Assembly (NCBI RefSeq): GCF_001613545.1
Contig: NZ_BDCO01000002.1
Span: 248,001-312,000 of the forward strand
From: Terrimicrobium sacchariphilum
GTDB lineage: Bacteria; Verrucomicrobiota; Verrucomicrobiia; Chthoniobacterales; Terrimicrobiaceae
Direction of reading: 5' to 3'
DNA: 64,000 nucleotides
The position numbers and the translations under genes are program-made. The notes under the pieces are model-generated. The model did not search any database. It saw only the letters and a list, made by a program, of their open reading frames with translations, and was not told the DNA's origin. This document shows, piece by piece, positions 863-13,845 of this stretch (within the stretch, counting starts at the first letter, position 1; every line of letters begins with the position of its first letter).

Positions 863-3235
863 TTAGGCCCTCCAGGTCTGGGTCTTGTAATTGCCGAGCG
901 GCACGCCTTGCGCCTTGACCTTGCGGGCGGCCTTCCCGTTGATCTCCACGGTCGCAATGTCGGTCGTGGTCGTCACGGTGAAGTCCGGTGCACCGGCGCC
1001 CTCATGGAGGGTTTCGGTGGAGATGCGGAGCGTGTTTCGGCTGAGCTTTGCCTCGATGGCGAGGCGGGTATAGGCCCCTTTTGCGTAGGCGAAAGAGAGG
1101 CCGTCATCGAACTCATACTCTGTGCCTGCGGTGCCTGCACGGGAGAGGAAGACGTGGAAGTCGACCTTGCTGCCATCGAAGGTATTATCCGCCGGAGAGA
1201 CGCGGGCAAGCGGCAGGATCGAGGCGTCGCGGATATAGAGAGGCGTATTTTCGCGGTCTGCCTTCACCGTGATGCTGCGACCGCCATCGATCCATTTCCC
1301 TGTGGAAATGTCGAACCACCGCGTGCGACCTGGCAGGACGACGTCGCGCTGGGTCTGCTTTTCCTGGACGAAGGGTGCCTGAAGGATCGAGGGACCGACA
1401 AGAAACTGGTCGTCGATTTTGCCCAGGGGCAGGCCCTTCGTGTCTGCAAAGTCGTAGAAGAGGGGCCGCAGGATGGCCTCTCCCTCGAGTTCATTGCCGA
1501 TGAAGAGCTGGTAGAGGTAGGGGCGCAGGCGGTAGCGCAGGCGGACATATTTGCGCAGGACTTTCAGGACGGCAGGACCAAACATCCATGGCTCCTGCTT
1601 GCGCGTGTCCTTCATGCTGTGGTTGCGCAGGACGGGGAAAAGGAAGCCCGCCTTGTACCAGTCCTGAATAAGCTCTGGCGTCGTGTCCCCGCCGAACCCG
1701 GCTGCGTCCGGGCCATTGAAAGGAATGCCGGAGAGGGCGAGATTCAGGGTTGTCGAGATGCAGGTCTTGAGGTGGTGGTAGTTGCTATAGTTGTCACCGG
1801 TCCAGATGGCGGTGTGGCGGCCGGAACCAGTCGAGCCGGAGCGGCAGAGCAGGAAGGGACGCTGGTCCGGGTGAGCCTTGATAAAGCCCTCGCGCGAGGC
1901 CTGCGCCATACCGAAGGCATACTGGTTATGATAGGTCTCATGGCTCTTTTTGCCATGATCAAAGCACATCTGGTCATTGTCGGCCGGCCCGGTCGACGGA
2001 TCGTTCATGTCGAGCCATGCTCCATGAATGCCGTGGGAGGCGAAGTCGGCGACTTCTTTCGACCACCACTGGCGTGCGGAGGGGAGAGAGAAATCCGGGA
2101 AAACGGTCTGGCCCGGCCATACCAGGCCGATGTACTCGAGGCCCTGCGGGTTTTTGCAAAAGGCGTCGGCTTTCCGCCCGCGTTCATAAACATCATAGCC
2201 TTTTTCCCATTTCACGCCGGGATCGATGATGGGGATGACCCTGCGGCCCTTGGCATTCAGCTTTGAGATCGCGTCGGCGGGATCGGGGAAGTGCTTTGCG
2301 TCAAAGGTGAAGACGCGATAGCCCCGCATATAGTCAATATCGAGCCAGAGTCCGTCGGCAGGTATCTCGTGCTTGGTGAAGTGTGCATCAAGCTCGAAGA
2401 GATCGCGGGCGGATTCATACCCCCAGCGGCATTGGTGATAGCCGAGCGCCCAGGCCGGAGGGCGAGGGGTGGTGCCCACGAGATTCTGGAACTTGCGAGT
2501 CAGCTCCGGCAGGGTCGGGCCGACGAGGATGAAGAGATTGGGCTGACCGGATTCTGCTCCGAGGTGAATGCGGCCATCGGAAAGCTTGGAAACGAGCTCC
2601 TCAGCGAGAAGCTCGCCCTCGGGGTTTACCTCCATCTGCTCGGCGATGGCGACCTTGAAGCCGGTGGACATAAAGGTCGAGTGCGGGTTGTCGAGGAGCA
2701 GGCCAATGTATTTGCCGCGTCGACGAATGATGAGATAAGGGATGGAAACGTAGACCGGATCGGGTGCAGGACGTCCGTTGACATAAGCCTCCGCGTTGAA
2801 GTCCCCCCACACGTCGGTGTTCCAGAATTTTGTCGTCTTCCCGGAATGTTCCAGCCCCGTCCATTTTTCGCCCATGCCGTAAAAGGCGTCGGCCTTTTCC
2901 TTGATAAACTCGAAGACTGAGGCATCGCCGCACTGGCCGAAAAACCGGCGTGGGGCGGACTCGAGCAATACTTCGCCATCGGAATCGCGGAGGATGAAGC
3001 GGTTTTTTGAAACTTCCAGCTTCGGCCCCGCGGAGATCGAGCTTGGCTTGAAGCTTAGGCCCGCCTGCGAATCGTTCACTTTCCAGCCTTTTCCGGAAAT
3101 GCCGAGATGAAAGATGCCCTCATCGGAGGCGCTCACTTTCAGGCTGTAGGAACCCAGGCTGGTCTTGAGGTTGCCTTTGGCATCGGTAGAGGCGAACTCG
3201 AAATTCGAAATGTACGGGTATTTATGAAAATGCAT
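863..3235 (-). CDS. Glycoside hydrolase family 31 alpha-glucosidase-like enzyme
   Basis: 790-residue GH31 enzyme, expected to hydrolyse terminal alpha-linked glucose, xylose or galactose by retention. The N-terminal beta-sandwich covers about residues 1-250, followed by the (beta/alpha)8 barrel starting at GTTPRPPAWALGYHQCRWGY and C-terminal beta domains. The nucleophile is D409 in AWLDMNDP (the family usually has DMNEP) and the acid/base is D481 in WTGDN. GLWLDIDYM near 295-303 is the usual GH31 strand before the active site. There is no signal peptide, so it probably acts in the cytoplasm on imported oligosaccharides. It is separated from the GH29 gene upstream by a hairpin, so it is probably transcribed alone. 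Exact substrate is not readable. Confidence 0.93.
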   Translation of the reverse strand: MHFHKYPYISNFEFASTDAKGNLKTSLGSYSLKVSASDEGIFHLGISGKGWKVNDSQAGLSFKPSSISAGPKLEVSKNRFILRDSDGEVLLESAPRRFFGQCGDASVFEFIKEKADAFYGMGEKWTGLEHSGKTTKFWNTDVWGDFNAEAYVNGRPAPDPVYVSIPYLIIRRRGKYIGLLLDNPHSTFMSTGFKVAIAEQMEVNPEGELLAEELVSKLSDGRIHLGAESGQPNLFILVGPTLPELTRKFQNLVGTTPRPPAWALGYHQCRWGYESARDLFELDAHFTKHEIPADGLWLDIDYMRGYRVFTFDAKHFPDPADAISKLNAKGRRVIPIIDPGVKWEKGYDVYERGRKADAFCKNPQGLEYIGLVWPGQTVFPDFSLPSARQWWSKEVADFASHGIHGAWLDMNDPSTGPADNDQMCFDHGKKSHETYHNQYAFGMAQASREGFIKAHPDQRPFLLCRSGSTGSGRHTAIWTGDNYSNYHHLKTCISTTLNLALSGIPFNGPDAAGFGGDTTPELIQDWYKAGFLFPVLRNHSMKDTRKQEPWMFGPAVLKVLRKYVRLRYRLRPYLYQLFIGNELEGEAILRPLFYDFADTKGLPLGKIDDQFLVGPSILQAPFVQEKQTQRDVVLPGRTRWFDISTGKWIDGGRSITVKADRENTPLYIRDASILPLARVSPADNTFDGSKVDFHVFLSRAGTAGTEYEFDDGLSFAYAKGAYTRLAIEAKLSRNTLRISTETLHEGAGAPDFTVTTTTDIATVEINGKAARKVKAQGVPLGNYKTQTWRA

Positions 3236-3428
3236 GATGAACTGAATGTGGCGGGGAATCGCTCCGGATGGCCGAAGCTGACGACCGGTTCATTCTCTTT
3301 TTATCGGGCAATCCGCCAAGAAGATAGTGAGGGGTGAAACTCTTTCTGTGTCCGTACAGTTCGTGTTGCCACGGGCACTCAAGCAAGGTTGCTGCTCCTG
3401 GGCAGTGCTGAAGCTTCTCCGAAGGGTT

Positions 3429-3458
3429 TCACGCGGCTGGAAATTACCAGCCGCGTGA
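3429..3458 (-). terminator. Hairpin downstream of the GH29 fucosidase
   Basis: Perfect 12-bp inverted repeat (TCACGCGGCTGG / CCAGCCGCGTGA) with a 6-nt AT-rich loop, about 10 bp after the GH29 stop codon. It is a strong stem without a downstream T-run. It probably ends the fucosidase transcript and separates it from the GH31 gene on the same strand. Confidence 0.6.
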
Positions 3459-3468
3459 GAAGCAATGC

Positions 3469-4716
3469 CTAGTGGGCCGGTTCGCCGGGAATCCAGAAGG
3501 TCGTTGTCGCGGTGATGGGCGCGGGATCGCCGTCCAGAGTGAGAACGATGGTGGTGGCGATGGGATCAGGGAGGGGCACGGGAAGATTTCGCAGCACGAT
3601 GCGCTCGGCGTCCTGTTCAAACTCGATCGCCTCGCCTGTGGCGAGCCACTTCGCCGAAAGCACTTTGTTCTTCGGTTCCGCCCAGCAGAGCTCGGTGGCG
3701 GTGCTGTTGCGGATGTGCAGATAAACCTGGCTGCCGCGCATGGTGACGCGACCCCAGTTGTTCCAGGCGAAGGTGGAGCGATCCGTATTGCGGATCGACT
3801 CGCGATTGCGGCTGAGCCAGGCACCGGCTTCCTTGAGGATGGCGCAGGATTCCTCGGGAATCGTTCCGTCCGGCTTCGGTCCGATATTGAGCAGGAGGTT
3901 GCCTCCGCCCGTGGCCGTCTCGCAAAGCATCTTGATGACTTCCTTGGCGTTCTTCCACTGGGTGTCTCCCGCGTGCCATCCCCAGTTGTCATTCAGCGTC
4001 ATGCAGGCTTCCCAGAGAGTGTCTTCTGCCGGCGGGCGTATTGCCTGCTCGCTGATCAGGACATGGGACGGAGCGCCATTCCGCTCATTGATCAGGAGAT
4101 GGGGTTGAAGCTGGAGGAGGTGTTCGTTGACCTCCGGGCTTTGCAGATTGTCCGGGATACAGCCGTCGTACCAGAGGTAGTCGATCTTGCCGTAATTGGT
4201 CATCAGTTCGACGAGTTGGGCGCGATAGTAGGCGATAAAGCGTTGGCGTGCTTCCTCGCTGGCCCAGTCGGTGACGCCCGGCCAGTCGCGGAAGTATGCG
4301 CCCGGGTAGTCCGGGTGAGACCAGTCGGCGGGAGAGTAGTACAGGCCGACCTTCAGGCCGGCGGAGCGAAACGCATCGACGAATTCGCCGACAAGGTCTC
4401 GCTTGGGGCCGAGGCGCGCTGCATGGAAGTCGCTCTGCTGCGTGGGCCATAGGGCGAAGCCATCATGATGGCGGGCAGTGAGAACGGCGTAGCCCATCCC
4501 AGCCTCTTTGGCGAGCTCGGCCCAGGCTTTTGGGTCGTAGTTTTCCGCGTGGAAATTTTCTACATAAAGTCTTTGGTAATTCTCCTGAGAGATGCGCTCG
4601 CGGTTGCGCACCCATTCGCCTCGAGCGGCGACCGAGTATGCGCCCCAATGAATGAACATTCCGTAGCGGGATTCGTTGAACCAGCTGAAGTGAGGAGGGG
4701 TTGCCTGGGATTTCAT
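3469..4716 (-). CDS. Glycoside hydrolase family 29 alpha-L-fucosidase
   Basis: 415-residue GH29 enzyme that removes alpha-L-fucose from glycans. Family hallmarks are FNESRYGMFIHWGAYS at residues 13-28, the metal-less barrel motif TARHHDGFALW near 80-90, and the catalytic nucleophile D184 in IDYLWYDG. A C-terminal beta-sandwich follows from about residue 330. The reading frame stays open 700 bp further upstream, but homology begins right after MKSQATPPHF, so the start at 4716 is chosen. No signal peptide is seen, which predicts a cytoplasmic enzyme. It is divergent from an alpha/beta hydrolase, with a 132-bp shared promoter region. Secreted GH29 enzymes are common elsewhere, so cytoplasmic location is an inference from this start. 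Confidence 0.9.
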   Translation of the reverse strand: MKSQATPPHFSWFNESRYGMFIHWGAYSVAARGEWVRNRERISQENYQRLYVENFHAENYDPKAWAELAKEAGMGYAVLTARHHDGFALWPTQQSDFHAARLGPKRDLVGEFVDAFRSAGLKVGLYYSPADWSHPDYPGAYFRDWPGVTDWASEEARQRFIAYYRAQLVELMTNYGKIDYLWYDGCIPDNLQSPEVNEHLLQLQPHLLINERNGAPSHVLISEQAIRPPAEDTLWEACMTLNDNWGWHAGDTQWKNAKEVIKMLCETATGGGNLLLNIGPKPDGTIPEESCAILKEAGAWLSRNRESIRNTDRSTFAWNNWGRVTMRGSQVYLHIRNSTATELCWAEPKNKVLSAKWLATGEAIEFEQDAERIVLRNLPVPLPDPIATTIVLTLDGDPAPITATTTFWIPGEPAH

Positions 4717-4793
4717 GGAAGAGTCTGATGTGATTTTTGCGGCCTTTTCGGCGGGGCCGATGAAGGGCTGATCTATGGCCAAAACCAAAGGAA

Positions 4794-4823
4794 TTGAAAA
4801 ATAATTCGTGAAGTTCTTATGAA
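4794..4823 (+). promoter_or_regulatory. Possible sigma70-type promoter of the alpha/beta hydrolase gene
   Basis: TTGAAA (-35-like) and TATGAA (-10-like) separated by 18 bp in the divergent intergenic region, placing a start of transcription about 20 bp before the ATG at 4849. Only a match to consensus by eye. Confidence 0.3.
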
Positions 4824-4848
4824 ATATCCCTCTTAGATACCGCCTTAC

Positions 4849-5610
4849 ATGAGCGCCGAATCCTCCCTGCCTGCCTTTCCCGCCAATAGTTATCGCGGTT
4901 ATCTTCGCCACGATTTTCAGCTCGATGAAAACCCTGTCACCTTGATCGAGCCTCGCAATCCTGCGCCGGGCCGGCGCTGGGTTTGGAGGGCGGAGTTCTT
5001 TGATGCTTTTCCTGCCTTTGATCTTGAGATGCTCGGGCGAGGGTGGTGGCTGGCTTACCAGAATGTCGGCAATACATTTGGGTGCCCATCGGCCATGGAT
5101 CGATTTGACCTTTTCTACAGGGAGCTCACCGGCAGATACGGGTTTCATCACCGCCCGGTGCTCGAGGGACTGAGTCGTGGAGGCCTGTATGTTTACAACT
5201 GGGCGGCGCGAAACCCGGAGAATGTCGGGCTGATCTACGCCGACAATCCAGTGTGCGATTTTAAAAGCTGGCCAGGCGGACACGGGTCGGGGCCGGGGAG
5301 CAAGGAGGATTGGGCCGCCCTGTTGCGGTGTTATGGATTTGCTTCTGAAGAGGAAGCCATGACCTGGAAGGGAAATCCGCTCGATCAGGTGCAAATCATA
5401 GTGCGCGAAGGAATTCCGATCGTGCACGTCTACGGGGATGCTGACGAGGTGGTGCCTTGGGATGAAAATACCGGGGCCATGATCAGGCGCGTACAGGCTC
5501 TAGGCGGCTCGCTCCAGACGTACCTCAAGCCAGGTGCTCTCCATCATCCCCATGGGCCAGAAGATCCGGCCGAACTGGCGGACTGGGTGATCTCGCACAC
5601 GCGAGACTAG
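4849..5610 (+). CDS. Alpha/beta hydrolase, probable esterase
   Basis: 253-residue alpha/beta-hydrolase fold protein. The nucleophile elbow is S109 in EGLSRGG, the acid is probably D199 or D197 in YGDADEVVPW, and the catalytic His lies in the HHPHG motif (H232-H235). The active-site order Ser-Asp-His is complete. There is no signal peptide. It lies divergent to the GH29 fucosidase and convergent to the LacI regulator, whose 3' end it overlaps by 4 bp. The context suggests a carbohydrate or acyl esterase that trims substituents from imported sugars, but the family resemblance does not fix the substrate. Confidence 0.75.
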   Translation: MSAESSLPAFPANSYRGYLRHDFQLDENPVTLIEPRNPAPGRRWVWRAEFFDAFPAFDLEMLGRGWWLAYQNVGNTFGCPSAMDRFDLFYRELTGRYGFHHRPVLEGLSRGGLYVYNWAARNPENVGLIYADNPVCDFKSWPGGHGSGPGSKEDWAALLRCYGFASEEEAMTWKGNPLDQVQIIVREGIPIVHVYGDADEVVPWDENTGAMIRRVQALGGSLQTYLKPGALHHPHGPEDPAELADWVISHTRD

Positions 5611-6626
5611 AGTCTTTCCGGGCACGAGGTGCCATCGCGCCATGTCCCGGAGATGAGGGTGAGACGGGGATTTTCCGGGAGCCCAAACTGGTTGTGCAGG
5701 ATCTTTGAAGCTACCGTTTCGAGAGTCATGCGCCCGAGCTCAACATTCGGCTCATCGACTCCGGCATAGAAGGGATCGGTTGGGCGGACGAGGCAGACGA
5801 GGGCAAGCTTGTCGGGGACCCGGATCTTCAACGTGTCGAGCCAGACCATCTCGTGTCCGATAAGGGTAAGGAGCACCTGGGGACGTGATTGCCTGAGCCA
5901 TTTTTGAAAATCCTGGGCGGAAGTGTCGTCGGGATTTCCGTAAAAGACGGTTGTCCTCTGCCTGCCAAAATATTCATGCTCGCACTGAGCGAAGCCTCCC
6001 AGCCACCGGGAGGGCTGGTCGGAGAGATTGTGCCTGGGCAGACAAAGGCTGATTCGTTGAAATCCCCGGGCGATCAGGTTGCGATAAGCCAACATCACAT
6101 TGGCGTGGTGATCGTGCGCGACCCGGTCGGTCGCAATCGGCCAGGAGTATCCGGTGGTCGAACTCGCATAGCGCTCCCATTGGAAGGAAATCCGCTCTTT
6201 CAAAGAGAGGAAGGGAGCAGTCAAAATAAGCCCCTTGATGCCTCGTGAGAAAAGGATCGAGTCGATGCGGGCCGGGGACATCTTTGGGGCGTGCAGGTAG
6301 AATGTCTCCGTGTAAAAGCCCAGTTCGTCGGCGCGCTGGAGTATGCCCTGGCGATACTCCTGGTAGACATGAAGGGTGGGCCACTGCTCCGGAGCGGCCG
6401 CATCGACCAGGAGGCCGACGCAGCTTCTATCCCGCAAAGGACGACCGGACCGGATCTGGTTCATTAAGGACGAAACATAAGCATTCGGCCGATAGGCCTG
6501 CTTTTGCACCTCGGCCTCGATAAGCGCCTTGGTCTCCGGGGGGATGGACCGGTCGCCGCGCAGGGCGCGCGAAACGGTGGACTGGTTGATCCCCAGCACC
6601 CTGGCGATGGCCCGTTGATTAGGCAT
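5607..6626 (-). CDS. LacI-family transcriptional regulator
   Basis: 339-residue sugar-responsive repressor. The N-terminus RAIARVLGINQSTVSRALRG is the LacI helix-turn-helix, followed by the hinge near YRPNAYVSSLM and a periplasmic-binding-protein-like effector domain from about residue 65 to the end. An in-frame TAG two codons before the ATG fixes this as the first possible start; no Shine-Dalgarno is visible because the space is occupied by the palindromic operator. It is divergent from the operon starting at 6693 and presumably controls both that operon and itself. The ligand is unknown, probably an oligosaccharide or monosaccharide. Confidence 0.92.
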   Translation of the reverse strand: MPNQRAIARVLGINQSTVSRALRGDRSIPPETKALIEAEVQKQAYRPNAYVSSLMNQIRSGRPLRDRSCVGLLVDAAAPEQWPTLHVYQEYRQGILQRADELGFYTETFYLHAPKMSPARIDSILFSRGIKGLILTAPFLSLKERISFQWERYASSTTGYSWPIATDRVAHDHHANVMLAYRNLIARGFQRISLCLPRHNLSDQPSRWLGGFAQCEHEYFGRQRTTVFYGNPDDTSAQDFQKWLRQSRPQVLLTLIGHEMVWLDTLKIRVPDKLALVCLVRPTDPFYAGVDEPNVELGRMTLETVASKILHNQFGLPENPRLTLISGTWRDGTSCPERL

Positions 6627-6631
6627 GCGCT

Positions 6632-6647
6632 ACGCATCGTGATGCGT
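6632..6647. promoter_or_regulatory. LacI-type palindromic operator
   Basis: Perfect inverted repeat ACGCATC-GT-GATGCGT between the divergent LacI gene and the PEP-CTERM operon, followed directly by another GATGCGT half-site at 6648-6654. It has even symmetry with a 2-bp centre, typical in size for LacI-family operators, although the common CG centre is not present. It ends 6 bp from the regulator start codon, implying autorepression. Confidence 0.6.
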
Positions 6648-6692
6648 GATGCGTTGTTTGCCAAGTCCTTTGTTTGCCGGGAGACTCGCCCC

Positions 6693-9380
6693 ATGCAGTT
6701 TCCCCTAACGCCTCCATATCGTTGCCGCCTGACGAAATCTCCTGTCGCGGCGGTACTTAAGCCAGCCTCTCTGGCCGCGTGCATCGTTGCGCTAATGGGT
6801 CAATCCCTAAACGCCTCCTCGGTGACCTGGGATGGTGGGGGAGCCAATGCCCTGTGGGGAACGGCTAATAACTGGGATACGAATACTCTCCCAGCCAGCG
6901 TGGATGACATCACCTTTGGTTCGGGCTTTACCTCGGGTAGTCCCAGCCTCGGAGGTGTGAGCTACACCGTCAACTCACTCACCTTCAACGGCTCCACGGC
7001 GATCTCGCTTGTGACTGGTGGCGGATCTCCGACCATCACCTTGACCTCGGGTTTGTTGACGAAGTCGACGACGGCAGCTGTAACGATCGCGCCTAACATC
7101 CTGCTGGGAGCGAATGGGAGTTGGAGCAACTCCTCCACGCCGTCGGCAAATGCTCTCAAGGTGACCGGGGTGATCTCCGATGGGGCGGCATCCTATGGTT
7201 TGACTCTCAGTGGAGGCGGACGGGTGGAACTCTACGCGAATAATACATTCGACGGGGGAGTGACGGCGAATTCCGTGAACCTCGGCGTGTATAATAATGG
7301 AGCATTGGGAACCGGTGCGCTTACGGTGCAGGGCGCCTCGGCGGTGTTTTTCACCGCAGGAACGGTTGCAAATAACATTGTCTTCAACAGCCCCAGCGGC
7401 TTCACCGGGCTATATTCCGGTTCTTACACGTCGGCGACGAACAATTTCTCGACGACCTTCACCGGCAGCATCACCGGGGCGATGAACAACCAGCAACTCC
7501 GTGTGGGTGGGAACGGACGGACATGGGTTTTTGGAACGATCAACCTTACGGGCATGCAGTCGGCGGGCCTCCAATTGGTGCCGGAGGAAGCATCGAGCAG
7601 TTCGTCGTATATCTTTTCGTCGACGCCGACTCTTAGCAATGGCCGCATCCTGCTTGGCGCGACCTCTGCGGCCGGAGCTCAGGGTAATCTCCTCGTCAAC
7701 GCCGCCACGACCTTCAATGTGACTCGTATCACACAAAACAGCGGTGGCGGCAGGGACACGATTGGCGGCATCCACACGTCCGGCACAGCGACGTTCTCGC
7801 AGTCAGAGGGCATCCTGCTCAATGATGTGACGGCCGGACAGGTCAACCTGATCTCGCTGAATTCCGGAGCGACCACGGACTTTGCGTCGCTGCTCGATGA
7901 TGGGACGAACTCGGTGGGAGTGACAGTCAACGGTACCTATCGTCAGATCGACACGACCGCATCCGCGGGCCAGGCAAACCCGGTTTACATGACCCAGACT
8001 CCCACGGGCAAGGTGAGGCTAAGCAAGTCCACCGGGAATACTTATGATGGCGGAACAGTGGTTTCCGCCGGGACATTGCTCGTGGCTAATACGAGTGGAT
8101 CGGCCACCGGTACAGGTAGTGTTTCGGTGGAGAGCGGAGCCGTTCTTGGCGGTACGGGTATCATTGCTCCCGGCGGGGCGGGAACCGTGCTGGTGAAATC
8201 CGGAGCCACGCTTGCGCCGGGCGAGGGGATCGGCCAGATCCGCTTCAATGGAGCGGCCACATCGGCGGCGGTGCTTTCCCTTGAGTCTGGAGCGGCATTT
8301 TCGTTCGAACTGGGCGCACCGGGAGTAAGCGATTCCGTGGCGATGTGGAACTACGCGCTCGGCGATCTGGTGCTCAACGGCAATGTTGTCAACTTCACCA
8401 ATCTCGGCGGGCTGGCGGAAGGAACCTATACGCTGTTCTCTTTCTTCTCGGATAGCGGCACGACATTGACGGCGAGCGGGCTGGCGTCGGGGTTGACCAT
8501 CGGAACCGGGCTCGAGTCTTATAGTGGCAGCTACTTCGTATACGGGCCCGACTCGATCAATCTCGTTGTGGCGGTACCGGAGCCATCCACAATTTGGCTG
8601 CTGGTTGCCGTGGGCGTGCTAGGTTTGTGCAAGATGAGGATGACGTCGGTCAGTAATGGACGGAGTGTCGCCTTCGGCTTTCGCAAGGTTAACGGGTTTA
8701 CCCTCATGGAGGTGCTCGCCGCAGTCGCGGTGATCGCGGTGCTCGCCGCGCTGATCCTGCCTGCGATGCAAGGCCTCCGGCAGAAAGGATTGTCCATTCT
8801 TTGTCTCCAGAACCTCCGGACACTGGCTGTTGCCTATAGTCAGTATCGGGCGGATCGGGATGGACTGCCTTTGCCTCGCGGCGTTACCTCCACCGATCCC
8901 GATTCGGAGAACGGCCATAACTTTTCCGGAATCAGCCTGCTGAGGCAGTACTATCAGGGAGGAACCGGGCCTTATGTCTTCACGCCCAGGGGGCAGTACA
9001 TCGAGGTGAAGACGGAGAAGTGCCCGATGTCGGCCATCCGGAAGGAGACCACCACAGCGAACTATAACTTTATAGCGAAGGATAATTACCTGAGCTACAC
9101 GGGAAATAATGCGGTCCGCATGGACCTGTATTTTTCCAATCACTCCAAGACCCCGCTGATGTGGGAAAGCTGGTCGATCAACTGGGGGTCCAATCCGTAC
9201 ATGCCCATGAGGCATTCCGGCAAGGTCAACATGGCATTCCTTGACGGGCATGTGGAAAGCATCCCGGGCACGGATGGCCGACTCTACAAGGGATACATCG
9301 AGTCCATCTACAAGACCGGAACTGTGGATGAGACCAAGCAGGGCAGCGGTATCGCCCTGGCGCGTGAAACCTATCCTTGA
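6693..9380 (+). CDS. Beta-strand-repeat PEP-CTERM protein fused in frame to a prepilin-like H-X9-DG protein
   Basis: 895-residue ORF that reads as two proteins. Residues about 1-45 are an export signal; about 45-625 are Gly/Ser/Thr-rich autotransporter-associated beta-strand repeats (for example NTYDGGTVVSAGTLLV); VPEPST at 628 starts a PEP-CTERM sorting signal with its membrane segment. Instead of stopping after the usual basic tail, translation continues into a type IV prepilin N-terminus (GFTLMEVLAAVAVIAVLAAL from residue 668) and a soluble domain ending with the HSGKVNMAFLDGHVE motif of H-X9-DG prepilin-like proteins. The junction contains ATGA at 8634-8637, which would be a normal stop/start overlap if the upstream frame were shifted by one base. 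A frameshift, sequencing error or true fusion are all possible. The start at 6693 is chosen because the upstream part overlaps the LacI operator. Confidence 0.8.
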   Translation: MQFPLTPPYRCRLTKSPVAAVLKPASLAACIVALMGQSLNASSVTWDGGGANALWGTANNWDTNTLPASVDDITFGSGFTSGSPSLGGVSYTVNSLTFNGSTAISLVTGGGSPTITLTSGLLTKSTTAAVTIAPNILLGANGSWSNSSTPSANALKVTGVISDGAASYGLTLSGGGRVELYANNTFDGGVTANSVNLGVYNNGALGTGALTVQGASAVFFTAGTVANNIVFNSPSGFTGLYSGSYTSATNNFSTTFTGSITGAMNNQQLRVGGNGRTWVFGTINLTGMQSAGLQLVPEEASSSSSYIFSSTPTLSNGRILLGATSAAGAQGNLLVNAATTFNVTRITQNSGGGRDTIGGIHTSGTATFSQSEGILLNDVTAGQVNLISLNSGATTDFASLLDDGTNSVGVTVNGTYRQIDTTASAGQANPVYMTQTPTGKVRLSKSTGNTYDGGTVVSAGTLLVANTSGSATGTGSVSVESGAVLGGTGIIAPGGAGTVLVKSGATLAPGEGIGQIRFNGAATSAAVLSLESGAAFSFELGAPGVSDSVAMWNYALGDLVLNGNVVNFTNLGGLAEGTYTLFSFFSDSGTTLTASGLASGLTIGTGLESYSGSYFVYGPDSINLVVAVPEPSTIWLLVAVGVLGLCKMRMTSVSNGRSVAFGFRKVNGFTLMEVLAAVAVIAVLAALILPAMQGLRQKGLSILCLQNLRTLAVAYSQYRADRDGLPLPRGVTSTDPDSENGHNFSGISLLRQYYQGGTGPYVFTPRGQYIEVKTEKCPMSAIRKETTTANYNFIAKDNYLSYTGNNAVRMDLYFSNHSKTPLMWESWSINWGSNPYMPMRHSGKVNMAFLDGHVESIPGTDGRLYKGYIESIYKTGTVDETKQGSGIALARETYP

Positions 9381-9410: not shown

Positions 9411-9962
9411 ATGAAAACCTCCCTTTCCTTCCTCTTCGCCGGCACTTTTGTTCTCGCAGTCCTCGTTGGCAACTCGCGAGCAGACACCCTGGAGATTGAT
9501 TCTTTCGAAACCCAGCCATTCCAATGGCAGGCGGCCATGGATCAGCCCGACCGGGCTCCCTTTACCAAGGAAGCCTCTGCCCAAAAGATCAAGGAAGGCA
9601 GTGCATCCGCCCGCTGGTCGGTGTCGCAGCGTCCATGGGCCATCATGAAGCATGCGCCCGAGGACTGGAGTTCCTATCAAGCGCTCAGTCTTTGGATCTA
9701 TGCCGACAAGGCGAATGGGCAGGTCCTCAACTTTTGGGTTTATTCCGGCGAAGGAGGGCAAAACTATTATTTCCACAAGCTTGTGGTCGACTGGACGGGC
9801 TGGAAGCAGATCGTGTTGCCACTTTCCGAGTTTCACGCCGTGCGTGATCCCGCAGGCTGGAACAAGGTCACCGGCTTTATGATCTCTGGCAAGGGCGGCG
9901 AGGCTGCCCCGCTGGCTGACAGTGTGCTTTGGCTCGACGATATCAAGCTGGAGTCTCTGTGA
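9411..9962 (+). CDS. Secreted carbohydrate-binding-like protein (CBM11/CIA30-like fold)
   Basis: 183-residue exported protein. A signal peptide (MKTSLSFLFAGTFVLAVLVG, cleavage near NSRA-DT) is followed by a single jelly-roll domain with the pattern IDSFE...KEGSASARWSV...YQALSLWIYAD...VDWTGWKQIVLPLSEF...LWLDDIKLES, which is characteristic of CBM11-like/CIA30-like galactose-binding folds. No catalytic domain is present. It sits 30 bp after the PEP-CTERM/prepilin ORF and overlaps the next gene by 4 bp (GTGA), so it is in the same operon. A sugar-capture or accessory role for the large secreted protein that follows is inferred. Confidence 0.75.
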   Translation: MKTSLSFLFAGTFVLAVLVGNSRADTLEIDSFETQPFQWQAAMDQPDRAPFTKEASAQKIKEGSASARWSVSQRPWAIMKHAPEDWSSYQALSLWIYADKANGQVLNFWVYSGEGGQNYYFHKLVVDWTGWKQIVLPLSEFHAVRDPAGWNKVTGFMISGKGGEAAPLADSVLWLDDIKLESL

Positions 9963-12823
9963 TATCCCTCCTGAGAAATTGTGCCGTGGCAGGGATGATC
10001 TGCCTGGCGGGCTCCATCACTGGGGCATCCCTTTTGTGCGCAGCCGATGTCCTGAATACACCCGAGGATGGCGGACCCGGCGTGTATGGCGGCGGCAAGG
10101 TGGCAAAGCCCTTTATTCCACAGGCGAACGCAAAGGAATTCCCGATTGGCCAGACGGCAAGGATCGTCACCATCGGGGGCGGGGTGCGAGGATTTGGCCT
10201 GCTGGCCGAGTTTCCCGAGGGAGGGCCTCGTCGTATCCTGGTGAGCCGGCAGACGACGATTTCTGCGCAGGAACCCTACATCCCCGCCGCGCTGGCCAGG
10301 GTCTTTGACCCGGCCGGGAATCTTGTTGCAGTGGAGGACTTCAGCACACAGGGGAGTGGCATGGAGACCCGGGCGTTGCAGGTACCGGAGGGTGCCGCGG
10401 GGATCTGGCGTATTTCCTTCTCCGGGGGGAGACAGGGCGACCTTGTTGAGCTTCGATTGCCGCCGACAGATGCCTGGGGAGTGCGCGGTGAAATGGCGTT
10501 AGGGGTCTCTCCGACGACGCCGCGGCCGGGCTATCTGTGGGTGCCGCCTTCGTCGCGGAAGCTGTTCCTCGGCGTGGAGGCGGGAGTGCCTGCCGGGATT
10601 GCGCTGGAATCCCGGGACGGGAAACTGCTTGGCCAGGCGGAAACCCTGGGCAGTGGTCAGAGAAAGGGAAGCATCCTGCTCGATCCAGCCCCAGCCAACC
10701 AGGTGGTAAAGGTCGTACTCCCGCAGACATTTGAGGGAGCCATCGATTTCGAAGGTGCTCCCGGGTTGCTCTGTCCCACTCCGGAGGCGGCGGAACGGCT
10801 TCAAGGTGGCACCGTCGATAGCCATGGCGTGCGGGTGGCTGGTCCCCTCCAGGCCCGGGCCCGCGATTGGATGATCGCAGCTGCTCCAACCCTCGACAGG
10901 GATCCTCATCTCAACTGGCCCGCAGAGGTGCCGGCCGATCTGGCCTCGCCATCAGTCGAGGTGCTCCCTTTTGGGAAATATGGCGGGCTGAATGGTGTGA
11001 TCAGCCTGATGCGCGCCCAGAATGAAAACCTCGATCCGGCAAAGCCCTACTTTGGCATCCCGGCTCCCACCGGATTGCCCACGGATGGAACCGAAACGGA
11101 ATCTTGGATGAATTTTCTGCCTTTCCCGGGTCGGTTTCTCTCACTCTATGACTCGGCGAGCTTCGCCGCGCTCCATGCCTTCCCCGGCAAGCTGAACCCG
11201 GCCTTTCATGACTCGCAGATCCTGAAGCGGGCCATCATGGCCGCCTTCTTCCATCTGACCGCGTTGCAAGGCGATGACCTCATCCGTGACGGCCGGATGA
11301 TTACGCTGCCGTATCCGCTCACGCACACCTTCTTCATCTACGACGGACTGGCCCAGGCCTATCTATCGATCAAGGATGCCCTGCCCGCCGACGCGGGGGA
11401 AATCTGGCGGCAGGGCCTCATGGCTATCGCGGACAAGGCCGCAGATCACCAGGCATACGAATCCAACCAGTGGGCACATGTCCTCAAGGCGCATCTCGAA
11501 ACGTATCTCGCGACTGGAGAGAAGAGGTTCCTCTCCTACTTCGAACGCGGTATGCGAGCCTATCTCGGCGGCGCGTATGGGCCGAACTCGAAGTTCGGCC
11601 AGCATCCGGCCGGATACTTCCTCGAGGAGTATGGACCAGATGGCAACTACGACCGGCTCAATCTCTACAGCCTCGTCGCCTGTTACAATCACTACAAGGG
11701 CATGCCGGGACGCGATGAAACTCTGACCCAGGCGATGAAGCAGGGAATCGAGAAAAACCTCCGCTTCAAGAGCTTCTTCTGGCTGCCGCAGCCGGATGGA
11801 TCTCTACACTCGCCCACGGCACTGAATTGCCGGACCTCGGCGATGTTCTGCCTCAGTGGCTATCCTGGCGAGTTTATCGCCAGGGGGGACTTCCCGCTCG
11901 GCGCATCCCGGTATTACCTCGACAAGGAACCGGCAGAGGGCATCGGGGCTGCTGGTATTACCTCATTCGTAGCCAATACGCCGGATTGGATCGCCCGTAC
12001 GATCCGCCAGGGCGTGGCATGGGGAGGCGCGGAATTCGAGGGTGGAGGCCAGTGGCTGCCTGCACTCGCCCAGGCTTATGGCTCGGGAGTGATCGCGGAG
12101 CCGGAGGCGCTTCCTTTTACCCAAAAGGACAAGACATGGCAGCTCCCCGGGCTGCTGGCGTGGAATCGCGGTGGGATTTATGGACTGACATTTTACGATG
12201 TCGTCGGGGCGCAGCGCAAACTGGTCGGTCACTTTGGTGGTGGGCCGACTGTGCTCTGGACGCCGGCGACCGGCGCGTTTCTCTCCTCCATGCAGCCCGT
12301 GCCCAATGCGGAGGCCGGACATCTCCCGGCCTCGGCCAAGGAAATCGCAAAACCTGAGCAACTCACCTACTCCTGTGTCTTTGGCAAATCGGACAAAGGC
12401 GTATTTTTTGCCAGCGGGTCGGATCGGTCCAACCTGCGGGAATCGCCTGACGGGAGACAGTATTCCATCGTCTCACGCGCCGGCGCACCCATGCTGGCGG
12501 CATTCACCTGGGAGTACGCGTTTGTGGAAAATGGCCTCGACCTCTCAGTGGCGGCAAAGACATTGACTGCTCCTCAGGAGTGTTTTGTGAATCTCCCGAT
12601 TCTCACCAGTCTCGCTACTGCAAAGGTGACGTTGGAAAATCCGCACCGGCTGGTGTTTGCCACCGACCGGGGAAGCGTTGCCATTGAGTGGCCCGAGGCA
12701 GCTGCGGGACGTATTGAGGATTCCATATCTCCCTCCGTGAAGCGACTGGTCGTTCCCATTACGCCTGGAGGAGAGAGTATGACCTTCCGCATTCGCGTTT
12801 CCATACCAGTTGATCCATCATGA
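9959..12823 (+). CDS. Large secreted protein, putative glycan-active enzyme with an alpha/alpha-toroid core
   Basis: 954-residue exported protein of unknown activity. The GTG start at 9959 overlaps the preceding stop (GTGA) and gives a signal peptide ending near LLCA-AD. About residues 25-290 are beta-rich; about 330-640 are helical, with repeated aromatic and Tyr/His-containing helices (for example HTFFIYDGLAQAYLSI, ESNQWAHVLKAHLETYLATG, DGNYDRLNLYSLVACYNHYKG) resembling an (alpha/alpha)6 toroid; the rest is beta-sandwich, the arrangement seen in heparinase-like lyases and some glycosidases. I cannot name the family. It is coupled with a carbohydrate-binding protein before it and an oxidoreductase after it, which supports a polysaccharide substrate. 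No catalytic residue can be assigned with confidence. Confidence 0.65.
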   Translation: MISLLRNCAVAGMICLAGSITGASLLCAADVLNTPEDGGPGVYGGGKVAKPFIPQANAKEFPIGQTARIVTIGGGVRGFGLLAEFPEGGPRRILVSRQTTISAQEPYIPAALARVFDPAGNLVAVEDFSTQGSGMETRALQVPEGAAGIWRISFSGGRQGDLVELRLPPTDAWGVRGEMALGVSPTTPRPGYLWVPPSSRKLFLGVEAGVPAGIALESRDGKLLGQAETLGSGQRKGSILLDPAPANQVVKVVLPQTFEGAIDFEGAPGLLCPTPEAAERLQGGTVDSHGVRVAGPLQARARDWMIAAAPTLDRDPHLNWPAEVPADLASPSVEVLPFGKYGGLNGVISLMRAQNENLDPAKPYFGIPAPTGLPTDGTETESWMNFLPFPGRFLSLYDSASFAALHAFPGKLNPAFHDSQILKRAIMAAFFHLTALQGDDLIRDGRMITLPYPLTHTFFIYDGLAQAYLSIKDALPADAGEIWRQGLMAIADKAADHQAYESNQWAHVLKAHLETYLATGEKRFLSYFERGMRAYLGGAYGPNSKFGQHPAGYFLEEYGPDGNYDRLNLYSLVACYNHYKGMPGRDETLTQAMKQGIEKNLRFKSFFWLPQPDGSLHSPTALNCRTSAMFCLSGYPGEFIARGDFPLGASRYYLDKEPAEGIGAAGITSFVANTPDWIARTIRQGVAWGGAEFEGGGQWLPALAQAYGSGVIAEPEALPFTQKDKTWQLPGLLAWNRGGIYGLTFYDVVGAQRKLVGHFGGGPTVLWTPATGAFLSSMQPVPNAEAGHLPASAKEIAKPEQLTYSCVFGKSDKGVFFASGSDRSNLRESPDGRQYSIVSRAGAPMLAAFTWEYAFVENGLDLSVAAKTLTAPQECFVNLPILTSLATAKVTLENPHRLVFATDRGSVAIEWPEAAAGRIEDSISPSVKRLVVPITPGGESMTFRIRVSIPVDPS

Positions 12824-13845
12824 AACTTTGCACTATCGGCTGCGGAGGGCACTCGAGCGATGTTCATGGCCCCGCCCAGCAAAAGGCGGCCCGGGAGGGG
12901 GCTGTTCATCTCGTCGCGTGTTGTGACTTGAACGAAACGCTGGCAGAGACGTACCGGGCGAGATTTGGTTTCGAGCGGGCCTATACAGATATCCAGACCA
13001 TGATCGACCGGGAGGCTCCGGATGTGCTTTGCCTTATCGTGCCGACGCACGTCACCAGCGATCTGGCGGTCGACATCCTTCGCCAGGGTATCCCTCTGTT
13101 TTTGGAGAAGCCTCCCGGGCTGAGAACGGCGGAGTTGGATCGCATGAGGGCGGCGGCGCATTCCGGAAGAGTGCCGAACCAGGTAGCCTTCAACCGGCGC
13201 TACATGCCCGTGGTCGCACGGACGCATGATATCCTTGAGGCACATCTGCCGCCCGAGGCCGTCCAGCAGATCAACTACGAGATGACACGGTTCGACCGGC
13301 GGGACGCGGATTTTTCGACGACCGCCATTCATGCCATCGACGCCGTGCGCTTCCTGGCGCGAAGCCCCTACCACGAGGTGCAGATCAGCTACCGGGAGAT
13401 GCCTTGGATGGGCGGCGGAGTAGCGGCCTTTACGCTCGATGGCACCTGTGAGAGCGGCACCCAGGTGCGTATCAACATCCAGCCGATCGCGGGCAAGACG
13501 AGTGAGGGCGCCTGCATTCATGCGGCGGAGCACACATTGCGTCTCAGCCTTCTCGGTGCGGACGGGCGTCAGTTCCAAGGCTATCTGGAGCACTGGCAGA
13601 AAGACCGGCTGGCGGAGCGATTTCAGGCGACGGGAGATCTTATCGACCGCAATGGCACCTTTGGCGAGTTCCAGGCTTTTCTCGACGCTGTGCGGGAGGG
13701 CCGTATCCCCCGTCCCGGTCTGGACGATTGCGGTCAGCAGATGGCTTTGATGGAGGCCTTGCGCCGGCGTTTGTCTCGTGTCGATTTTGCAGAATCTCGA
13801 CAGGATTTGCTCGCTCCGGAGTTGATTGTCTCGAGGTTATCGTAA
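12820..13845 (+). CDS. Gfo/Idh/MocA-family oxidoreductase
   Basis: 341-residue NAD(P)-dependent sugar or polyol oxidoreductase. The Rossmann motif GCGGHSS at residues 7-13, the EKPPG motif at 96-100 (family EKP, with the usual catalytic Lys), and the HAIDAVRF stretch near residue 176 follow the family order. The ATG overlaps the previous stop codon (ATGA), so it is translationally coupled to the large secreted enzyme. It probably transforms a sugar released by that system; the substrate cannot be read from sequence. Confidence 0.87.
   Translation: MKLCTIGCGGHSSDVHGPAQQKAAREGAVHLVACCDLNETLAETYRARFGFERAYTDIQTMIDREAPDVLCLIVPTHVTSDLAVDILRQGIPLFLEKPPGLRTAELDRMRAAAHSGRVPNQVAFNRRYMPVVARTHDILEAHLPPEAVQQINYEMTRFDRRDADFSTTAIHAIDAVRFLARSPYHEVQISYREMPWMGGGVAAFTLDGTCESGTQVRINIQPIAGKTSEGACIHAAEHTLRLSLLGADGRQFQGYLEHWQKDRLAERFQATGDLIDRNGTFGEFQAFLDAVREGRIPRPGLDDCGQQMALMEALRRRLSRVDFAESRQDLLAPELIVSRLS

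Follow-up and report, generated by a model that had tools for sequence, protein, structure and literature searches.

The genome of the soil bacterium Terrimicrobium sacchariphilum NM-5T (class Spartobacteria, Verrucomicrobiota) comprises 4,751,807 bases in three contigs, and the 64,000-nucleotide stretch analysed here (the window) carries at 6693-9380 on the forward strand a fusion gene of 895 amino acids, in which the ORF reading, profile matches and orthologues reveal a signal peptide, a beta-repeat passenger, a PEP-CTERM segment, a basic loop, a prepilin signal with its helix and an H-X9-DG head. The neighbouring genes were assigned by Pfam searches and by synteny among the three species of the genus that form the comparison set, namely T. 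sacchariphilum, Spartobacteria bacterium LR76 (G194) and a further species (G287). On the reverse strand lie two glycan-degradation genes, together spanning 863-5427, which encode a GH31 enzyme (863-3235) and a GH29 alpha-L-fucosidase (3469-5427), followed by a divergently oriented LacI-family regulator (5607-6626, reverse strand). Downstream of the fusion gene, all on the forward strand, a CBM11-like carbohydrate-binding protein (9411-9962) begins after 30 bp and is likely co-transcribed with it, followed by a listed 964-aa protein without a Pfam match (9929-12823; 85% identity between species) and a Gfo/Idh/MocA oxidoreductase (12820-13845). All three species share this order, from GH31 to the oxidoreductase; in LR76 a GntR-type regulator also belongs to the neighbourhood, the fetched G287 stretch ending before that position. 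The listed start of the 964-aa protein overlaps the CBM11-like gene, and translation of this protein probably begins slightly further downstream. The listed GH29 frame runs antiparallel over an esterase-like gene (4849-5610, forward strand) that is conserved at 85-88% in the relatives; the GH29 N-terminus has probably been called too long, with its start too far upstream. The divergent promoter region between the LacI gene and the fusion gene measures 66 bp, is nearly invariant among the three species and harbors an inverted repeat, ACGCATC-GT-GATGCGT (6632-6647), with perfect 7-bp arms and a 2-bp spacer, which is unchanged in all three species and has no other exact copy within the window; it is a plausible candidate operator for the LacI-type regulator.

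The different parts of the fusion protein were delimited by hydropathy and profile searches. Residues 1-42 (6693-6818) form a probable signal peptide with a basic N-terminus and a hydrophobic stretch at 18-36, as is usual at the N-terminus of PEP-CTERM proteins, and cleavage is likely near ...SLNA/SS, a position predicted from the sequence. The passenger (residues 43-627; 6819-8573) yielded in Pfam and NCBIfam searches one weak PATR/autotransporter beta-strand repeat at residues 438-464 (PF12951, score below the cut-off), and the best other PEP-CTERM proteins found in a self-search of the genome share 44-50% identity with approximately residues 431-650. The PEP-CTERM motif and its membrane helix follow at residues 628-646 (8574-8630), reading VPEPSTIWLLVAVGVLGLC, and score above the curated cut-offs of both Pfam (PF07589, 22.0 bits at residues 627-646 against 20.7) and NCBIfam (TIGR02595, 16.4 bits against 16); the tag is thus placed inside an 895-residue precursor, not at its extreme C-terminus. 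A basic loop of 22 residues (647-668; 8631-8696), KMRMTSVSNGRSVAFGFRKVNG, is predicted to be cytoplasmic from its charge and its two flanking helices, and it would serve as the prepilin leader. The predicted mature pilin N-terminus (residues 669-696; 8697-8780), FTLMEVLAAVAVIAVLAALILPAMQGLR, has glycine at -1 and glutamate at +5 (E673), and matches Pfam N_methyl (PF07963, 22.8 bits at residues 664-688, cut-off 21.2) as well as NCBIfam IV_pilin_GFxxxE (TIGR02532, 22.7 bits, cut-off 16.3). The initial annotation, which had read a PEP-CTERM with a membrane helix followed by a prepilin part, is thus borne out for both halves; it had set the prepilin N-terminus at residue 668, where the signal is indeed found but shifted by one position, 668 being the residue before the predicted cut between G668 and F669 (codon 8697-8699). 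This signal does not stand at the N-terminus behind a short leader, as 668 residues, a membrane helix among them, precede the cut. The pseudopilin head covers residues 697-895 (8781-9377), and the H-X9-DG ending proposed for it is recovered by TIGR04294 at residues 840-857 (9210-9263) with 27.2 bits against a cut-off of 19. In the predicted structure of the pilin half one long N-terminal helix is seen at residues 671-721 with a local pLDDT of 66-92, the mean pLDDT being 48 and the head mostly below 50, so that the fold of the head is of low confidence.

The frame is open for 895 codons without a stop across the junction, as had been noted initially. It is also open 5' of its ATG (6504-6692, forward strand), through the 5' end of the LacI gene, in all three species, giving a 970-codon frame. 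At 8634-8637 the sequence ATGA, likewise pointed out in the initial annotation, combines an ATG that is in frame with the ORF, and is a possible internal start of the pilin, with an overlapping out-of-frame TGA; a second in-frame ATG lies at 8640, and both ATGs are kept in all three species. The whole 895-aa ORF was recovered as one gene with the same junction in both other members of the genus (91% and 90% identity), free of stops and indels; orthologues always split into two genes, which the initial annotation had named as a refuting observation, were not what was found. For residues 626-690, which span the junction, the three species give dS values of 0.24-0.29 and dN/dS values of 0.06-0.09; the pseudopilin head has a dN/dS of 0.035-0.048, and the PEP-CTERM shows no amino-acid change at all. 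These values indicate that purifying selection acts across the fusion junction.

Pattern scans were run over 384 genomes of the class and the stretches found were then read; short gaps are over-represented in such scans, and the shares given here are therefore not a census. It proved common in the class for a prepilin gene to follow immediately on a PEP-CTERM gene, with roughly 70 such pairs read. In about 25 of these, a sample biased to short gaps, the prepilin ATG and the PEP-CTERM stop overlap over four bases (ATGA), which is the commonest junction among the compact two-gene pairs of the class. Such overlaps suggest translational coupling in the two-gene pairs. In the genome of T. sacchariphilum itself, seven PEP-CTERMs have a prepilin signal at most 150 bp downstream, where random placement would give 0.09, and fusion is seen in three of these seven close pairs; together with the curated HMM cut-offs, this count rules out a chance juxtaposition of two weak motifs. 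The reverse order was also observed, a prepilin-like gene lying directly 5' of an autotransporter-repeat PEP-CTERM gene at C2:788635-791058 (reverse strand; L034) and C2:811138-813581 (forward strand; L035). An adjacent or ATGA-overlapping gene pair is the likely ancestral state of the fusion, judging from the arrangements compared. Because the four-base overlap is common in the two-gene relatives, the ATGA at 8634-8637 may be a relic of an ancestral stop/start overlap, and an old indel shortly before position 8634, predating the genus split, may have created the fusion; the reading of this ATGA as a stop/start overlap thus appears sound as history and fails as the mark of a present error or frameshift.

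The architecture is not confined to one gene. A second fusion family was found by the genome self-search (C2:1517492-1519018, 508 aa) and a third via the relatives (C2:2721342-2723912, about 856 aa, with T5SS/PEP-CTERM repeats), both kept in all three species, and a fourth comes from another family of the class (G089, 526 aa). The four families are unrelated to one another and the G089 case is independent. The residues of both signals are highly conserved: glycine or alanine at -1, phenylalanine at +1 and glutamate at +5 of the prepilin site are kept, and the VPEP/IPEP core is invariant, in ten of ten fused sequences. Families 1-3 display three hydrophobic segments, corresponding to the signal peptide, the PEP helix and the pilin helix, and in family 4 the PEP helix falls under the hydropathy threshold used. 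Differential conservation was observed for the loop of family 3, which changes fast and differs in length by whole codons between two conserved halves, a pattern that fits the expectation for an in-frame, translated and freely varying tail. This loop (residues 564-589 of the L353 protein and the equivalents in L123 and L124) is cysteine-rich in two of the three species, with stretches such as SCCCLK and PCCGCSG. Between the PEP helix and the pilin phenylalanine, families 2-4 lack a conserved start codon: in the T. sacchariphilum copy of family 2 none of the 48 codons preceding that residue is ATG, GTG or TTG, and the loop of its family 3 copy, read in the protein sequence, contains no methionine. 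Unless a rare start codon is used, the pilin of these families could therefore be made only within the fusion. Compact fusions were also sought across 84,980 species; most of the matches listed were due to chance and the only true fusion among those listed was that of LR76 (G194), an outcome that bears little on the spread of the architecture beyond the class. In-frame matches such as VPEPADFDAFW...KFTMTEV were rejected as members of a soluble protein family, which we take to be esterase-like, without the PEP-CTERM/prepilin architecture.

The enzymes for both signals are encoded in the genome, each by a single gene. The one prepilin peptidase gene (PF01478) has the zinc-type CxxC pairs and both Asp motifs, and the one exosortase gene (PF09721, 153 bits) has the Cys, Arg and His motifs. 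A long insertion between the two catalytic Asp regions of the prepilin peptidase (L357 765-1904, contig C3) splits its Pfam match in two. In addition, several GspE/PilB-type ATPases and six secretin matches were detected. The genome contains about 113 PEP-CTERM matches, mostly scoring above the cut-off, together with no fewer than 40 prepilin-like genes, and the single exosortase and the single prepilin peptidase thus each face a very large set of substrates.

A conserved single ORF with intact signals is thus present in this genus, and both processing enzymes are encoded in the T. sacchariphilum genome; from these we infer processing of the fusion by both the exosortase and the prepilin peptidase. 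We consider it reasonably probable that the gene specifies a natural polyprotein with two sorting signals, split by the prepilin peptidase; the cleavage, deduced from the conserved site and the topology, the order of processing and the partnership of the products are predictions. The Sec signal peptide would export the beta-repeat passenger, the PEP-CTERM helix would span the inner membrane from outside to inside and leave the short basic loop in the cytoplasm, and the pilin helix would span the membrane back, so that the H-X9-DG head would stand outside. With passenger and head outside, the loop would come to lie in the cytoplasm, the site at which prepilin peptidase acts. The peptidase would then cut the loop between G668 and F669 and methylate Phe669, and this cut would free both the passenger, with the PEP-CTERM now near its C-terminus as an exosortase substrate, and the mature pseudopilin; the two products of the one chain are expected in equal amounts (1:1). 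The pseudopilin would probably serve a type II/type IV-like apparatus for handling or displaying the passenger that is its partner, as the adjacency of the two suggests, and both would probably act together, under the LacI-type regulator, in a glycan-use locus. The stop/start boundary of the usual two-gene pair would have been lost in the fusion, and the fused form retained. After the predicted cut at the prepilin site the family 2 passenger would end in ...VGRRIRRAA (GGLIIVGRRIRRAA), a canonical, textbook PEP-CTERM tail, and its pseudopilin would start with FTLPEV. In families 1 and 3 a stretch of 40-50 residues would separate the PEP motif from the C-terminus formed by the predicted cut, exceeding the usual tag length, and the tag of family 1 would approach a C-terminal position only after the cut.

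The same frame could also be read as nested genes, with translation beginning internally, at ATG 8634 or 8640, for most of the pilin, and with the long chain as a minor form or by-product, which we regard as unlikely while still giving it some weight. Both ATGs are conserved in family 1, the leader that would begin at ATG 8634, MRMTSVSNGRSVAFGFRKVNG, resembles an ordinary prepilin leader, and the ten codons ending at ATG 8634 are unchanged in all three species, a weak indication with an estimated chance expectation of about 0.07. However, no good Shine-Dalgarno sequence precedes 8634 or 8640, and with no stop between the halves, ribosomes coming from upstream would still produce the fusion. 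Moreover, families 2-4 keep the architecture without a conserved start codon, which confines the internal-start option to family 1.

Somewhat less probable is a fusion that stays uncleaved or is cut only in part, its membrane hairpin keeping the passenger at the inner membrane beside the pilin domain. The single ORF and the conserved loop of family 1 would suit such a hairpin, and the membrane helix in front of the leader may make a poor peptidase substrate; we know of no prepilin-peptidase substrate whose leader is anchored by a transmembrane segment. On the other hand, the residues at -1, +1 and +5, which are needed only for cutting and assembly, are the very ones kept in every fused sequence, the unconserved loop sequence of family 3 fits a discarded tail, and a pilin whose N-terminus stayed uncut would be unable to enter a pilus by the known mechanism.

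The PEP-CTERM of the fusions might also be a relic that has become a membrane anchor and no longer acts as a sorting signal. In the survey of Haft et al. 2006 (PMC1569441), 87% of the known PEP-CTERM cases end within ten residues, and long-tailed or rare internal copies, far from the C-terminus, were suspected to be non-functional. The family 3 PEP-CTERM, slightly under the NCBIfam cut-off, would agree with such a loss, but the core that is invariant in all ten sequences and the unchanged PEP-CTERM of family 1 speak against it, and we hold this reading to be improbable. That two genes were joined by an error of sequencing or assembly, or by a frameshift that arose recently in the strain, is refuted to the point of being negligible, although the initial annotation had allowed for a frameshift and the ATGA at the junction and the frequent four-base overlaps of two-gene relatives might suggest one. 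Two other species, strongly diverged at synonymous sites, have the same frame, length and junction, the assembly coverage of NM-5T is 425x (PMC5532833), and two further fusions are conserved in the same three species. The real fusion that the initial annotation had offered as the other option is supported.

With the polyprotein as the preferred reading, a wider view may tentatively be proposed, and we give it less than even weight: the fusions would represent a new polyprotein class, an exosortase substrate together with its own dedicated pseudopilin, split in a cytoplasmic loop, and would be the tip of a class-wide system of Verrucomicrobiota that exports or displays PEP-CTERM proteins with substrate-dedicated pseudopilins and links exosortase sorting to type II/IV-type machinery. 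Since 2006 the PEP-CTERM has by definition been a C-terminal tag, and the copies described here are internal, joined to pilin signals and under selection, in four unrelated families. If the fusion is cut as proposed, it would offer, within a single molecule, a natural reporter of two processing enzymes that have been poorly studied, and it would join two large and mostly unexplained families of Verrucomicrobiota, with more than 100 PEP-CTERM and at least 40 prepilin-like members here, in one pathway. As the species is cultured (NM-5T, JCM 17479), the question can be tested directly. No description of a PEP-CTERM/prepilin fusion or of a prepilin-peptidase polyprotein was found in the literature searched, which consists mostly of openly accessible journals. 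Both component families are already known, and what is new to us is the way they are combined and that the tag lies internally.

Several known systems share parts of this architecture. Substrates of the PEP-CTERM/exosortase system (EpsH, XrtA-type) have, like the fusion, a signal peptide, a diverse beta-rich passenger, the PEP motif, a membrane helix and basic residues, with an exosortase in the genome, whereas in the fusion the tag sits mid-precursor and its helix is followed by about 250 further residues. Similarly, the H-X9-DG (TIGR04294) prepilin-like proteins exhibit the G/FTLxE signal, the long hydrophobic helix and the H-X9-DG motif near the end, but they normally stand alone with a short leader, while the "leader" of the fusion is a whole PEP-CTERM surface protein. 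The adjacent or ATGA-overlapping PEP-CTERM and prepilin pairs of the class Verrucomicrobiae present the same components in the same order, yet as two genes with a stop between them. Finally, the cytochrome b/c1 polyprotein of Bradyrhizobium (fbcH), which is cut at an internal signal sequence, likewise gives two membrane proteins from one bacterial gene by a split at an internal export signal, but there leader peptidase cuts outside the cytoplasm, in place of a prepilin peptidase, and no sorting tag is involved.
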